Positions 7,860 to 57,432 of a stretch of DNA of 64,000 bases are shown here, one piece after another. Origin of the DNA: Dokdonia pacifica (GTDB lineage: Bacteria > Bacteroidota > Bacteroidia > Flavobacteriales > Flavobacteriaceae); NCBI RefSeq assembly GCF_900188275.1, contig NZ_FZNY01000001.1, positions 496,001 through 560,000 on the forward strand, read 5' to 3'. The notes below the pieces were generated by a model that ran no database searches, was not told the origin of the DNA, and was given only the letters and a program-made list of their open reading frames with translations. The position numbers and the translations under genes are program-made. Positions within the stretch are counted from its first letter, which is position 1. Every line of letters begins with the position of its first letter.

Positions 7860-8297
7860 TTAATGGTCAGTAACATTTTTTACAGCGTCTTTTGCATCTT
7901 TAGCAGCATCTTTCGCTTTATCTACTGCATTTCCAGCAGCATCTTTAGCATCATTTACAGCTTCACCTGCCTTATCTACTGCATTTCCTGCAGCTTCTTT
8001 AGCATCATTTACAGCTTCACCCGCTTTATCTATTACTTCTCCTGCTGCGTTTGTTGCTTCTTCAACAGCTTCACCAGCAGCGTTTGTTGCATTTTCAACA
8101 GCTTCACCAGCAGCATTTGTTGCATCTTCAACAGCCTCTCCTGCAGCGTTTGCAGCATTTTCAGCAGCTTCTCCAGCAGCATTAGCAGCATTCTCTACCG
8201 CATTTCCAGCCTCTTCAGCATTTTCTTTTACTTCTCTACAAGAAGTGATATTAAAAACTAAAGCTACAGCAGCAATACTTAAAATAATTCGTTTCAT
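7860..8297 (-). CDS. Ala-rich lipoprotein with 11-residue LEA-like repeats
   Basis: A 145-residue protein. A signal peptide ends in a lipobox with Cys at residue 20 (FNITSC), so it is predicted to be lipid-anchored. Nearly all the rest is low-complexity amphipathic helix: about five 11-mers of the form NATNAAGEAVE, then two 18-mers (KAGEAVNDAKEAAGNAVD), then KDAAKDAKDAVK. The 11-mer period resembles group 3 LEA and apolipoprotein helices, which suggests a membrane-surface or stress-protective helix, but this is inference. The repeats are also evident at DNA level as ~33 bp units around 8035-8205, prone to copy-number change. Convergent with fabD. Confidence 0.8.
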   Translation of the reverse strand: MKRIILSIAAVALVFNITSCREVKENAEEAGNAVENAANAAGEAAENAANAAGEAVEDATNAAGEAVENATNAAGEAVEEATNAAGEVIDKAGEAVNDAKEAAGNAVDKAGEAVNDAKDAAGNAVDKAKDAAKDAKDAVKNVTDH

Positions 8298-11272: not shown

Positions 11273-11842
11273 ATGAAAAAACTACACTCCCTATCCCTAA
11301 TTTTTCTGGCACTTTTCATTCAATCTTGTTTTCCCGTTAGCATTCCTCCTAACCTAGAAAATGGAAAACTCATGGAAGCCAAAAAATTTAAACGTAAGCT
11401 TCCTGGCCAATACGCATATATCTTTACAGACCCCAAAGATGCTAATGAATTTTATTACTATTTAAGTGCTAAATTTCCACCAAATCAAGAAGGAGATTCT
11501 GAAAACAATGTACCTGCACGCATACATAATACCGATTATTATATTTCATTTTATGAAACAGAAAAAAAGTCACGTGTAGTAAACTTACTACCTGCCATAG
11601 CAAATGAAGTAATGAGAGAAAAAAATATTGCCATTGAACTCGACGAACCTCCTATTGTAAGAGACGGCACATGGTATATTGCACTTGTCATTACGGATGC
11701 AGCATTTTCTGATGCATTGTCTCCCGACTACAAACATCAAAAAGAAGTGTTAGCATATGCTAAGTCATTACATAACGAATATATAAGTACACACAACTAT
11801 AATAGTTTGCAATTTCAGAATACAACAAATACTAATAAATAG
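11273..11842 (+). CDS. Lipoprotein of unknown function, tandem copy 1
   Basis: 189 residues from ATG 11273. The open frame reaches back to 11114, but that would run through the rpmA terminator; only the 11273 start gives a signal peptide with a lipobox Cys at 19 (LFIQSC). The mature part has PPNLENGK, AKKFKRKLPGQYAYIFTDPKDANEFYYY, and WYIALVITDAAFSDAL. It is clearly paralogous to the next gene (11977..12534) across its whole length. I do not recognise the family. A short palindrome follows the stop at 11861. Confidence 0.75.
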   Translation: MKKLHSLSLIFLALFIQSCFPVSIPPNLENGKLMEAKKFKRKLPGQYAYIFTDPKDANEFYYYLSAKFPPNQEGDSENNVPARIHNTDYYISFYETEKKSRVVNLLPAIANEVMREKNIAIELDEPPIVRDGTWYIALVITDAAFSDALSPDYKHQKEVLAYAKSLHNEYISTHNYNSLQFQNTTNTNK

Positions 11843-11860
11843 TATATAAATACTGAGTAT

Positions 11861-11874
11861 GCTTTCGCGAAAGC
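11861..11874. repeat. Short palindrome after lipoprotein copy 1
   Basis: Perfect GCTTTCGCGAAAGC. The bases before it (AATAAATAGTATATA, ATACTGAGTA) are shared with the site after copy 2, where the long form is found instead. Confidence 0.95.
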
Positions 11875-11976
11875 GCAACCAACACAATACTTCAAAGGTT
11901 ATTCCTAATCCTAGAAATCACTGCCTTTTGCACATGGCATAATCTTTGTTTAAAATTAAAGACTAAAACTACACGT

Positions 11977-12534
11977 ATGAAAAGAATATCCTACATTCTT
12001 CTTCTATCTATTTGCTATTCCTGTATCCCATTACAGATCGCACCTAATCTAGAAGAAGGAAAAGTCTACAAAGCAAAGAAATTTAAGCGCTCACTTCCTA
12101 AACAACACACCTATGTGTTTACAGATCCAAAAGATGCTAATGAATTTTACTACTTTATAAGTTCAAAATATCAGATAAACCAAGATACTGGTGAAAATAA
12201 CATCCCAATTCTTATAGAAAATAGACGTTATTACTTGTCCTTTTACGAAATGGAAAAATCCACACAGACTATTAATTTAATCCCACTTGCTTTAGATGCT
12301 ACTTTAATAGCTAATGATAGCGAACCCATTTTAGAGGATATATATACTTCAAGAACTGGCAATTGGTATATCGCACTCACCATTACAGATTCAAATCTTA
12401 ATGATGCATTAGACCCAACCTATAGAGACACAGATAAAGTTGTATCCTTTGCAACACAATTGCAAGAGGAATATCTAGCTACACAAAATTACAATAGCTT
12501 GTTACTAAAAAAAACTGTACCTACAAATAAATAG
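11977..12534 (+). CDS. Lipoprotein of unknown function, tandem copy 2
   Basis: 185 residues, paralogue of the preceding gene: same order of APNLEEGK, AKKFKRSLPKQHTYVFTDP, DANEFYYF, WYIALTITDSNLNDALDP and a final NYNSLL. The signal peptide ends with a lipobox Cys at 16 (CYSC). Function is unknown. The pair probably arose by a local duplication that included the 3' flank, because both stops are followed by nearly the same ~35 bases leading into the palindromic repeat. Confidence 0.75.
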   Translation: MKRISYILLLSICYSCIPLQIAPNLEEGKVYKAKKFKRSLPKQHTYVFTDPKDANEFYYFISSKYQINQDTGENNIPILIENRRYYLSFYEMEKSTQTINLIPLALDATLIANDSEPILEDIYTSRTGNWYIALTITDSNLNDALDPTYRDTDKVVSFATQLQEEYLATQNYNSLLLKKTVPTNK

Positions 12535-12541
12535 TATATAG

Positions 12542-12622
12542 ATACTGAGTACGCTTTCGCGAAATTGAGCTTGCGAGATTCACGGCCAAAGAGAGAGCGT
12601 AGCGTTAAAGCATACTCAGTAT
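12542..12622. repeat. Long repeat element, copy B, inside a bidirectional hairpin
   Basis: ATACTGAGTACGCTTT at 12542 pairs with AAAGCATACTCAGTAT ending at 12622 (15 of 16 bases). Between them lies the repeat body CGCGAAATTGAGCTTGCGAG, TTCACGGCC, AAAGAGAGAGCGTAGCG. A T-run follows. It separates convergent genes and probably ends both transcripts. Confidence 0.85.
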
Positions 12623-12629
12623 TTTTATT

Positions 12630-15014
12630 TTAAAATTGAAAACGGTAACCTACATCTGGAAAGAATCCTATTTGATCTACCTCATCAATTCTATTGGTCA
12701 CTCGATTATAACGTTGTTGAAACAAATTACTATTATTTGTCACGTTTTGTAAGTCGACAAAAAACTGATGGGATTGTTTCTTTTTTGCACTATTTAATTT
12801 TACCCCAAATTTCACATCCCATCTAAAATAGGCATCACTTTGCTCACTAAAAGCAAGATCTTCTTGCAATACTTCAAAGCCAGCAGCTTGCGATGCTTCA
12901 AGGTTTGCAGGTGTAAAATAACGCCCTCCTGAAGTCGTGATTTTGGTATCTACAAACCACGTATTACGTCCTGTTGCTCCTAGTTTGAATTCTTTTCCCG
13001 CCAATACATTAACAACATAGCCATTATTAAAAGGGGTATTACGCTCTATTCCATCACTTCCTTCATACTTGCTTTCAAAAAACGAGGAAGTAAACAAGCC
13101 ATAAAATCCTTTATCAAAAAACTTCTCTATCGTGATCTCAACACCCTGGTTAAAACCAGTCCCTTCATTAACTAATGATACACGATCATTATCAAAACCA
13201 AAATCTGCTCCTTCAGTAAGGGAAGAATAACTAGACGGAAACGCCTCTATAGCGGCATTGCTTATAGATTGGTAATAGACCTCCAGTTTCCCTCGCCAAC
13301 TTTTTGCTAATCGCACATCATATCCTACGACAAAGTGATTGCTTTGTGTAAAATCCAACTCCTTGTTGGTTTGCACTAATTCGCCATTAACTGCTTCATT
13401 AAGAAAAAGGATAGGTAGTGGTTGCAGTTGGTGATGCAAACCATACCCTATATTAATTTTATGTTTTGGGGTGATGGCATAATTTACAGCAGCTCTTGGT
13501 TCTAATACAAATTGCTCACTCAACGTACTATATTGTCCATGAAGACCGCCGTTTAAGGTAAGCTTCTCTGTAAGCCTATATTGTCCTGATATATACGGTT
13601 GAAATATCCCTAAGCTTTCGTCTATATCACTAAATGTAAATAGATCTGGATCGCCATCACCATCGCCGTCAGATTGCATGTTACGATCTCTTTCTAAGGT
13701 GTCAAATCCTATATTTTCATATACAAAACCTGCTCGTACCGTTGATTTATTATTGAGTTTTGTATTGAATAAACTGGAAATACTCACTCTTGTTTCTGTA
13801 TTATCTGCTTCTGTAAAAAGAATAGAGCGTTCTTGTGGAGTATCTTGATCAAAAAATCTATTGACCTCAAATTGATTGGTAGATAAGCTACTTGACAGGG
13901 TTGTTTTTATATAGGATTTATCATTCAAATTGATACGATGTTTCAATCCTATCACACCAAATCCAGAATCTACAAATGTATCTTCGTCGGTGGCAGCAAA
14001 TAAATCATCTTCGTCTATATCATCACCCAAGAAGTCAATATTTGAAGTTCCAAAAATTCCAAATATTGAAAAATTCCCTGCTTTCCCTCTTCCAAAATCA
14101 ATATTCAGAGATAGATCACCATAATTGGGTGTAGCACTAGTTCCACCTGCTCCTTGGCCTAAAATTCCGACTAATGAGTAACGTCCAGCTACTAGGAAAG
14201 AGCCTCCTTTATTCCCTAAAGGACCTTCTACATTGGCTTCGACTCCAGAGAAAACACCTACTTGTAAAGAGTATTCATAATCGTCTGTATTTCCTTTTCT
14301 AAATCCTAAATCAAAAACACCACCTAAGGCATTTCCATATTCAGCAGGGAATGCAGAGGTTAAGAAATCTGAGTTCTTTAGCATATTTGGGTTTAAAGCA
14401 GACACAGGCCCTCCCGTAGTTCCTGCGGTTGAAAAGTGATTTGGACTTGGTATTGGAATGCCTTCTAAACGCCATAACAAACCTGTAGGAGAATTTCCTC
14501 GTACTACAATATCATTACGACTATCGTCGGGTGCAGATACGCCAGCAAAATTGGCTGCAAGTCTTCCTACATCACTTCTTCCTCCTGAAAATCGAGTCAC
14601 CTCATCTACGCTAAACTGTCGTGATGAGACGGTTGCCAGTTTATTTACAGCTCGCTCCTTATTGGTGCCAGAGCTAATCACTACTTCATCGAGTTGCCCA
14701 AATGCCTCTACCAAATTCACGTCTACTACTGCATCTTTACCCGCAGTTACTACAATATTTGGTATCGTAATAGATTCAAATCCTAAATAGGTAACACGAA
14801 TACGTTGTCTTCCCACAGGAACATTTTCCATTCTGAACGCACCATTTTCATCGGTAATAACACCCACAGGCGGATCTACATCCAGAAGCTCTACTGTTGC
14901 TCCCATTAATGGAATTTCTGATTGCTTATCGAATACATTTCCTTTAATTACGCCATTCTGAGCGGTAAGTACACCTGCACATAATATCAGAATAACTCTT
15001 ATTAGATTTTTCAT
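12630..15014 (-). CDS. TonB-dependent outer membrane receptor with carboxypeptidase-regulatory-like N-domain
   Basis: 794 residues from ATG 15014 (MKNLIRVILILCAGVLTAQ, a signal peptide). The frame extends to 15071, but that extra part merely translates a palindrome (15045) and has no signal. Order: CarboxypepD_reg-like beta-sandwich (VIKGNVFDKQSEIPLMGATV, ~20-110), plug domain (LDEVVISSG to ~230), and a beta-barrel ending in GYRFQF with terminal Phe. It should import a ligand across the outer membrane using TonB energy. There is no SusD partner, so it is not a classic SusCD pair. A LytS/LytR-type two-component pair is divergent from it and may control it (inference). Confidence 0.9.
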   Translation of the reverse strand: MKNLIRVILILCAGVLTAQNGVIKGNVFDKQSEIPLMGATVELLDVDPPVGVITDENGAFRMENVPVGRQRIRVTYLGFESITIPNIVVTAGKDAVVDVNLVEAFGQLDEVVISSGTNKERAVNKLATVSSRQFSVDEVTRFSGGRSDVGRLAANFAGVSAPDDSRNDIVVRGNSPTGLLWRLEGIPIPSPNHFSTAGTTGGPVSALNPNMLKNSDFLTSAFPAEYGNALGGVFDLGFRKGNTDDYEYSLQVGVFSGVEANVEGPLGNKGGSFLVAGRYSLVGILGQGAGGTSATPNYGDLSLNIDFGRGKAGNFSIFGIFGTSNIDFLGDDIDEDDLFAATDEDTFVDSGFGVIGLKHRINLNDKSYIKTTLSSSLSTNQFEVNRFFDQDTPQERSILFTEADNTETRVSISSLFNTKLNNKSTVRAGFVYENIGFDTLERDRNMQSDGDGDGDPDLFTFSDIDESLGIFQPYISGQYRLTEKLTLNGGLHGQYSTLSEQFVLEPRAAVNYAITPKHKINIGYGLHHQLQPLPILFLNEAVNGELVQTNKELDFTQSNHFVVGYDVRLAKSWRGKLEVYYQSISNAAIEAFPSSYSSLTEGADFGFDNDRVSLVNEGTGFNQGVEITIEKFFDKGFYGLFTSSFFESKYEGSDGIERNTPFNNGYVVNVLAGKEFKLGATGRNTWFVDTKITTSGGRYFTPANLEASQAAGFEVLQEDLAFSEQSDAYFRWDVKFGVKLNSAKKKQSHQFFVDLQNVTNNSNLFQQRYNRVTNRIDEVDQIGFFPDVGYRFQF

Positions 15015-15044
15015 GATTTTGTTTTTTGATACTGTAAATCTTAC

Positions 15045-15058
15045 GCTTTCGCGAAAGC
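15045..15058. repeat. Short palindrome upstream of the TonB receptor
   Basis: Perfect GCTTTCGCGAAAGC 31 bp before the receptor start, in its leader region. Confidence 0.95.
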
Positions 15059-15249
15059 ATTCCCAACTCAAAAAGTTTAATTGTCAATACACCTATCCTA
15101 CTGTTATAAATCTTCTTGAAGTAACTTATGAGGTATTTTCACACTGTTTTTAAACTCATACAAAAGGTATCACAGTTCAAGTAGTAAAATGACAATTCAT
15201 CTATTCCCATAGAAGAGAGGCTATCTTTATCACTTATATTTACAGGATC

Positions 15250-17099: not shown

Positions 17100-17114
17100 T
17101 GCTACTTTATTTTA

Positions 17115-17180
17115 TAAGCTTTCGCGAAATCGAGCTTGCGAGATTCACGACCAAAGGGAGAGCGTAGCGTTAAAGCGTAT
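17115..17180 (+). repeat. Long repeat element, copy C (best-preserved)
   Basis: ATAAGCTTTCGCGAAAT, CGAGCTTGCGAGATTCACGA, CCAAAGGGAGAGCGTAGCG, TTAAAGCGTAT. The outer arms (AAGCTTT / AAAGCGT) are the two halves of the short palindrome. It lies between convergent genes ending at 17099 and 17201. Confidence 0.88.
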
Positions 17181-17200
17181 AGCCAGATTATTCAAGTGAT

Positions 17201-31372: not shown

Positions 31373-31388
31373 TGTTTTGTTTTTTTGG

Positions 31389-31428
31389 TACGCTCCTGCC
31401 TGCCGGCAGGCAGGTTCGCGAAAGCGTA
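31389..31428. repeat. Short palindrome interrupted by a 20 bp palindrome
   Basis: TACGCT, then CCTGCCTGCCGGCAGGCAGG (31395..31414, perfectly self-complementary), then TTCGCGAAAGCGTA. Removing the insert restores TACGCTTTCGCGAAAGCGTA exactly. It lies between two minus-strand genes. Confidence 0.93.
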
Positions 31429-57280: not shown

Positions 57281-57313
57281 AAACCCACAAGATTATATGT
57301 TGTGGGTTTTTTT
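57281..57313 (+). terminator. Terminator after hemD
   Basis: 10 bp stem AAACCCACAA / TTGTGGGTTT (57281..57290 and 57300..57309) then T-run. Confidence 0.88.
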
Positions 57314-57314
57314 A

Positions 57315-57380
57315 TACGCTTTCGCGAAAGCGAATTTATGAGATTCACAACTATCGAGAGAGCGAAGCGTTAAAGCGCAT
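57315..57380 (+). repeat. Long repeat element, copy F
   Basis: TACGCTTTCGCGAAAGCG (full palindrome, 57318..57331), then AATTTATGAGATTCACAA, CTATCGAGAGAGCGAAGCG, TTAAAGCGCAT. Differs from the other long copies in keeping a perfect short palindrome as its left arm. Confidence 0.85.
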
Positions 57381-57432
57381 ATACATCAACCAAAAAATAG
57401 CAGCAGATAGCTGGTAACACAGGATATCTTCC

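Follow-up and report, generated by a model that had tools for sequence, protein, structure and literature searches.

The stretch analysed here, referred to as the window, comprises 64,000 nucleotides of Dokdonia pacifica (NZ_FZNY01000001.1, positions 496,001 to 560,000 of the forward strand) and contains a tandem pair of paralogous lipoprotein genes, copy 1 and copy 2, followed by a convergent TonB-receptor-like open reading frame (Table 1). Behind copy 1 stands a 14-bp palindrome, GCTTTCGCGAAAGC, located 18 nt 3' of the stop codon, and behind copy 2 a long form spanning 12542-12622, in which two outer arms enclose a non-coding body (body A). This placement of the short and long forms agrees with the preliminary description of this DNA, as does the outer-arm hairpin with which the long form was said to close; the right arm, however, ends at 12622 rather than at 12611, and the hairpin has 15 pairs over its 16 arm positions instead of a full 16 bp, the mismatch being C12552/A12612 on the + strand. 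Body A adds 42-45 bp over the short form, the range depending on where the AAA overlap is cut.

Table 1. Features of the lipoprotein locus and related elements, in coordinates of the window.
Feature	Positions	Strand	Remarks
Lipoprotein copy 1	11273..11842	+	Lipoprotein by its start, judged by eye; no Pfam family
Near-identical 39-nt patch, copy-1 half	11834..11872	+	37/39
Short palindrome GCTTTCGCGAAAGC	11861..11874	.	Exact match
Lipoprotein copy 2	11977..12534	+	No Pfam family
Near-identical 39-nt patch, copy-2 half	12526..12564	+
Long form, left outer arm ATACTGAGTACGCTTT	12542..12557	+	7 nt past the copy-2 stop
Long form, body A between the arms (49 nt)	12558..12606	+
Long form, right outer arm AAAGCATACTCAGTAT	12607..12622	+	Reverse complement equals the copy-1 left flank, 16/16
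Unit matching G007 L043:8665-8753 inverted	12543..12631	.	80/89, T-run included
T-rich run past the right arm	12622..12631	+	Terminator-like for copy 2, as judged from sequence
TonB-receptor-like ORF	12630..15071	-	Convergent with copy 2; Pfam CarboxypepD_reg and Plug
Second long form of the window	17112..17182	+
Variant with a CCTGCCTGCCGGCAGGCAGG module replacing the body	31388..31428	-
Third long form of the window	57312..57382	+	13 congeners have a short palindrome here

Copies of GCTTTCGCGAAAGC number 903 in the 5.52-Mb D. pacifica genome, a genome-wide excess far above expectation of the kind that characterizes a highly iterated palindrome (HIP). The sequence is present in all 18 Dokdonia genomes searched, with 369-905 copies in the 17 congeners, and occurs outside the genus in G027 (578 copies) and G029 (6 copies), each from another genus; 39 of the 59 genomes searched, that of D. 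pacifica being counted among the 59, contain none. Within the window, CTTTCGCGAAA yields 32 strand-matches against 0.02 expected. The palindrome statistics are based on 1.26 Mb from the window's contig, hereafter C, out of the 5.52-Mb genome; the 12-bp core occurs there 230 times, and among 59 further palindromes matched in composition the best occurs twice. Short copies lie for the most part inside ORF calls (142 of 222), these calls being crude (greedy ORFs of at least 80 aa). Viral contigs with the 14-mer mostly carry one copy per stretch among the matches listed, and all six palindromes of G029 are located on a single contig, between 82640 and 174379.

When contig C4 of the sister genome G014 is aligned with contig C, 36 of 37 coding palindromes are identical in the two genomes, compared to 38,035 of 213,235 other coding 14-mers (18%), while the seven non-coding sites available for comparison include five identical palindromes, against 5,911 of 21,653 other non-coding 14-mers. 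With respect to the more distant G013, 18 of the 21 palindromes of that genome are kept in D. pacifica over a background of 5.0%, and 18 of 35 D. pacifica palindromes are kept in G013. The short palindrome is hence an older, conserved feature, the copies of which are held exactly at fixed orthologous positions, mostly in genes.

The copies are also evenly spaced. Omitting three gaps larger than 20 kb, the coefficient of variation of the spacing is 0.64, compared to 0.90 in simulations (minimum 0.78 in 1000 runs), and gaps shorter than 500 bp are observed 3 times versus 21 simulated. The one large gap that we looked into is a 91-kb stretch (L024-L168, contig C21:385329-476573) without any palindrome or half site. 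It carries, among the 10 ORFs examined, a TraG P-loop protein, mercuric-reductase-like proteins, AcrB-type efflux, a copper oxidase and a P-type ATPase, and resembles an integrated conjugative element that carries metal-resistance genes as cargo; the absence of the palindrome is as expected of acquired DNA. The surroundings of one of the six G029 palindromes (L232, G029:C18 around 126988) share approximately 72-75% identity with the efflux operon on this palindrome-free island. The DNA uptake sequences of Neisseria (DUS) and Haemophilus (USS) likewise occur as hundreds of exact copies, spaced evenly and found both within genes and close to gene ends, but uptake sequences are not known to be palindromic. 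The Dokdonia 14-mer resembles them in number, spacing, position and its absence from a large conjugative-type island, and differs from them in being a palindrome.

With a profile of the body, 47 matches were found over 1.6 Mb, 35 of them in C and 12 in G014 contig C4, and these were sorted by eye. Even though the left arm lies outside the search profile, it is exact in 33 of these matches; the other 14 comprise three tandem second units, two one-base variants, one truncated copy and eight copies with another module in place of the arm (seven TACTGAG, one of them degenerate, and one CTGCC). A shorter, core-only profile gave 32 matches, 20 of them with an exact CTTTCGCG nearby, the remaining 12 including copies whose arm falls beyond the checked stretch. 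The breakpoints of the body lie at CGCTTTCGCG and AAAGCG, with an ambiguity of AAA or, in a subtype that keeps an intact palindrome, of AAAGCG. According to a sequence-only model, body copies number at least 131 in D. pacifica, 106 in G014, 77 in G005, 57 in G017 and 54 in G007, and 0-9 were found in each of 13 other congeners, all of these counts being lower bounds from at most 128 or 150 scored candidates per genome. The same model found none in 21 relatives of other genera, and a search of 12 further genomes recovered one body-A copy, in the palindrome-rich G027 (L325, G027:C10:35896-35960). Covariation supporting a conserved RNA structure of the body is weak, with 1 of 14 predicted pairs changed on both sides, and no Rfam match in the window reached the gathering score. 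An 80-base query with the long form had no match in the phage or the plasmid collection, and an origin from either was discarded.

Several elements show a composite organization. Tandem double units of body A sharing an AAAGCG boundary occur at C 733371, 739756 and 373244. The 20-bp palindromic module CCTGCCTGCCGGCAGGCAGG is found within the short palindrome and, flanked by GAGA and TTCAC, also within body A, with no apparent target duplication (window 31388-31428; C 291764, 664816 and others). A further module, ending in TACTGAGCTTGTCGAAGTG, is flanked by CTTTC and CGAAA in many elements (C 344374, 373224, 514928, 710941; L042 8720), resulting in nested modules; it adjoins a palindrome half in 8 of its 13 copies in C.

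The two forms replace each other at orthologous sites. The site at G014 178400 is short and its counterpart at C 593142 long, with matching flanks on both sides; G014 265730 is long, its D. pacifica counterpart short; G014 246265 is short, its counterpart at window position 57319 long; and G014 101969 is short, its D. pacifica counterpart carrying a different module. In this survey, 17 of 98 sites on the G014 side and 4 of 90 on the D. pacifica side were unanchored, and only pairs read in alignment were used, since the automatic body label was sometimes triggered by chance on long intervals. The site at 57319 is long only in D. pacifica. Of its congeners, 13 are short, five of them (G014, G007, G013, G017 and G001) with both flanks corresponding and eight (G002, G003, G004, G006, G008, G009, G012 and G016) with only the right flank in common because the left gene differs; G010 and G015 hold a half site without body, G005 has nothing in 400 nt and G011 was unscored. 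In these orthologues (L245-L268) the palindrome stays upstream of a TATTTTTGC stretch, which we take to resemble a Bacteroidota promoter, even where the left gene differs. Using G013 as an outgroup, chosen by identity rather than from a tree and itself holding few bodies, 11 of 37 long-form rows could be placed, representing 10 distinct loci: four are short there, six have neither form and none has the body. Wherever a site can be polarized, the short form predates the long one and the body represents a gain and not a loss, gains being frequent only in some lineages. Conversion between forms, as put forward in the preliminary description together with a comparison of relatives to tell gain from loss, therefore holds at these orthologous sites.

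Short intergenic elements with inverted arms and lineage-specific numbers are known as REP sequences, associated with RAYT (Y1) transposases, and as MITEs, and the long forms share these traits. Transposase-driven movement of the body as a non-autonomous mobile element would account for a small, non-coding, multi-copy sequence that occurs in either orientation, in lineage-specific numbers, and outside ORF calls in all 21 long forms examined (hand-picked from the 35 matches in C). We nonetheless consider it unlikely. The Y1 transposase family searched for (Y1_Tnp, PF01797) has no member in the D. pacifica genome, which led us to reject a RAYT as the driver, and it occurs in 4 of 18 Dokdonia genomes, among which only G007 is body-rich. 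There is no clear target duplication, only an overlap of 3 nt (AAA) or 6 nt (AAAGCG), and the body almost always lies within the palindrome, so that, in contrast with REP sequences and MITEs, it does not form a palindrome of its own; its arms belong to a conserved palindrome that was already there.

The copy-2 hairpin and T-run look like a transcription terminator in sequence, and both forms might be terminators varying freely. The long form behind copy 2 sits between convergent genes and has a predicted fold with z-scores of -2.7 on the + strand and -3.6 on the - strand. Among 64 intergenic short copies with a neighbouring stop codon, 39 lie at most 60 bp from it, compared to 36% of intergenic positions, and the palindrome may assist termination near gene ends. 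A terminator scan, which permits loops of 3-8 only, did not flag the copy-2 T-run. As a general account, free variation of terminators is improbable: short copies are mostly found within ORF calls, the 41-nt stretch with the copy-1 palindrome has no stable fold (z 0.13), the other two long forms of the window give z-scores of -0.5 and -2.2, and the exact conservation in coding sequences is left unexplained.

The preliminary description had regarded the lipoprotein pair as a direct comparison of the two forms at one ancestral site, on the basis of 3' flanks matching for about 40 bases. The match itself is confirmed, at 37 of 39 positions (11834-11872 versus 12526-12564), and the 27-nt flanks of copies 1 and 2 are the most similar (25/27) in a comparison of 514 half-site flanks comprising 131,841 pairs. 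A tandem duplication carrying one element, the copies of which now show short and long states, would be consistent with a common flank that ends in the palindrome and with the palindromic sequence behind both copies in G014. We regard this origin as having little probability, and gene identity, the G014 flanks and the G007 element all disagree with it. The paralogues share 46.5% amino acid identity, and their DNA 51-76 identities per 100 alignment columns, compared to 95% in the patch, so that the duplication is too old for a neutrally evolving flank of such similarity. The patch begins at the last codons and stops inside the palindrome. Both copies are present in G014, yet the patch is not shared by their flanks there: G014 copy 1 ends earlier and bears a CTGCC module, and G014 copy 2 bears a short palindrome. 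Given the age of the duplication, the patch looks like later local copying, to which the extension of the similarity past the palindrome also points. Of the two outcomes that had been set against a single ancestral site, a separate origin of the sites is largely what was found, whereas similarity limited to the palindrome was not.

The element behind copy 2, in turn, corresponds to one located beside the TonB-receptor-like gene in G007. The order in that genome is a lipoprotein gene, a 684-aa ORF, an element with the arms seen in the window and a TonB-receptor-like gene (Pfam Plug). The 684-aa gene has matches in G007, G014 and G013 and none in D. pacifica. The G007 element matches window positions 12543-12631 at 80 of 89 positions when inverted and, in ungapped comparison, at 24 of 89 directly. 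The two bodies show 6 differences over 43 positions, and 26 of 171 unrelated pairs are as close or closer; an inversion in place and two separate insertions are therefore indistinguishable. Together, these comparisons favour reading the lipoprotein pair as a mosaic, not as two states of a single ancestral site, and do not support conversion between forms at this pair. In terms of gene order in three genomes, copy 2 was probably brought beside the long element by loss of the intervening gene; G013 has a different gene order.

A plain gain of the body at the palindrome that follows copy 2 in G014 (L042), without any gene-loss junction, would fit the right flank in G014, AAAGCGCACTTAGTATT, which resembles that of the window, AAAGCATACTCAGTATT. 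It is nevertheless rather doubtful, because the left arm fits the G007 TonB-side sequence TACTGAGTACGCTTT (15/15) better than the G014 sequence GATACAGGATACGCTTT, the whole 89-bp unit has its inverted match in G007, and G014 runs on into the gene that is not found in D. pacifica. Copy 2 itself is 92% identical to its G014 counterpart over residues 1-145 and 80% identical over residues 145-184 in another frame. This two-frame match in G014 copy 2 (L042 6001-6554) reflects a frameshift or a sequencing error.

The explanation that best accommodates these data, and which we hold with moderate confidence, combines a maintained palindrome, later gain of the body, break-repair copying and, at the lipoprotein pair, a gene-loss junction followed by a conversion tract. 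The highly iterated, evenly spaced 14-bp GCTTTCGCGAAAGC is held at fixed orthologous positions on the Dokdonia chromosome, and some intergenic palindromes have received a small non-coding body between CGCTTTCGCG and AAAGCG. A palindrome that breaks, or that stalls as a hairpin, might then be repaired from an existing long element, homology being provided by the arms CGCTTTCGCG and AAAGCG, in a transposase-free, homing-like copying. Break-repair copying appears the most likely route because nearly every body copy has palindrome context. At the lipoprotein pair, the TonB-side long element would have reached copy 2 through loss of the intervening gene, and a short conversion tract may have transferred to copy 1 the terminal part of copy 2 together with its newly acquired flank as far as the palindrome, copy 1 retaining its own short palindrome; the direction of this transfer is suggested by one comparison, that with G014. 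No driver enzyme was identified, and no insertion was directly observed.

Rearrangement breakpoints do not concentrate at the palindromes: 15 of 104 lie within 60 bp of one in C, compared to 12.9 expected, and 15 of 104 in G014, compared to 11.2 expected. We accordingly rejected the palindromes as rearrangement hotspots. At the 60-bp scale they are not general break hotspots, which weakens the break-repair step of the proposed mechanism. The palindrome itself may be subject to maintenance of the HIP kind, act as a signal in DNA uptake or recombination, or bind a protein.

The closest parallel is HIP1 of cyanobacteria. HIP1 is a perfect palindrome present genome-wide at very high copy number, as is the Dokdonia 14-mer, and its one-base deviants are reported to concentrate at the outer positions (PMC4390886); correspondingly, among 37 one-base variants of the 14-mer, 32 have the changed base in one of the two outermost positions on either side. 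The Dokdonia palindrome differs in its length of 14 bp, in its CTTTCGCGAAAG core and in belonging to the Bacteroidota, not the cyanobacteria. HIP1 itself, GCGATCGC, is not iterated in D. pacifica, with 5 occurrences in 1.26 Mb against 3.1 expected. A model for the cyanobacterial role of HIP1 has been offered in the same source (PMC4390886). The link to a partner methyltransferase for an inner sequence was not confirmed for the Dokdonia palindrome in the two families considered. PF00145 and PF01555 have no member in the D. pacifica genome and are absent from 10 and 14, respectively, of the 18 Dokdonia genomes, that of D. pacifica included in the former count; C5 and N6/N4 methyltransferases of these families were rejected as partners of the palindrome on the grounds of their absence from D. 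pacifica.

We tentatively put forward, as a possibility short of probable, that Dokdonia harbours an independent Bacteroidota counterpart of HIP1, in which sequence-specific maintenance without an obvious partner methyltransferase would be coupled to use of the palindrome as the exclusive homing site for passengers spread by transposase-free break-and-copy repair. Literature searches covering HIP, uptake sequences, REP, TTTCGCGAAA and palindromes of Dokdonia brought up no account of GCTTTCGCGAAAGC. Dokdonia offers a second, unrelated lineage with a palindrome longer and sharper than HIP1. With most sites conserved in a sister species and natural sites interrupted by the body, both maintenance and targeted insertion are testable by comparison and simple genetics, and congeners such as G008, G009 and G012, in which hundreds of palindromes occur but no body was detected, provide further material for comparison on both questions.

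Two minor observations concern coding sequences of the window. A palindrome at 15046, at the upstream end of the TonB-receptor-like ORF, adds an in-frame N-terminal CFRESVRF stretch, which is probably not part of the real protein. Positions 7860-8297 hold a small, repetitive Ala/Glu-rich ORF with NAANAAGEAVE-like repeats and a lipoprotein-like start.
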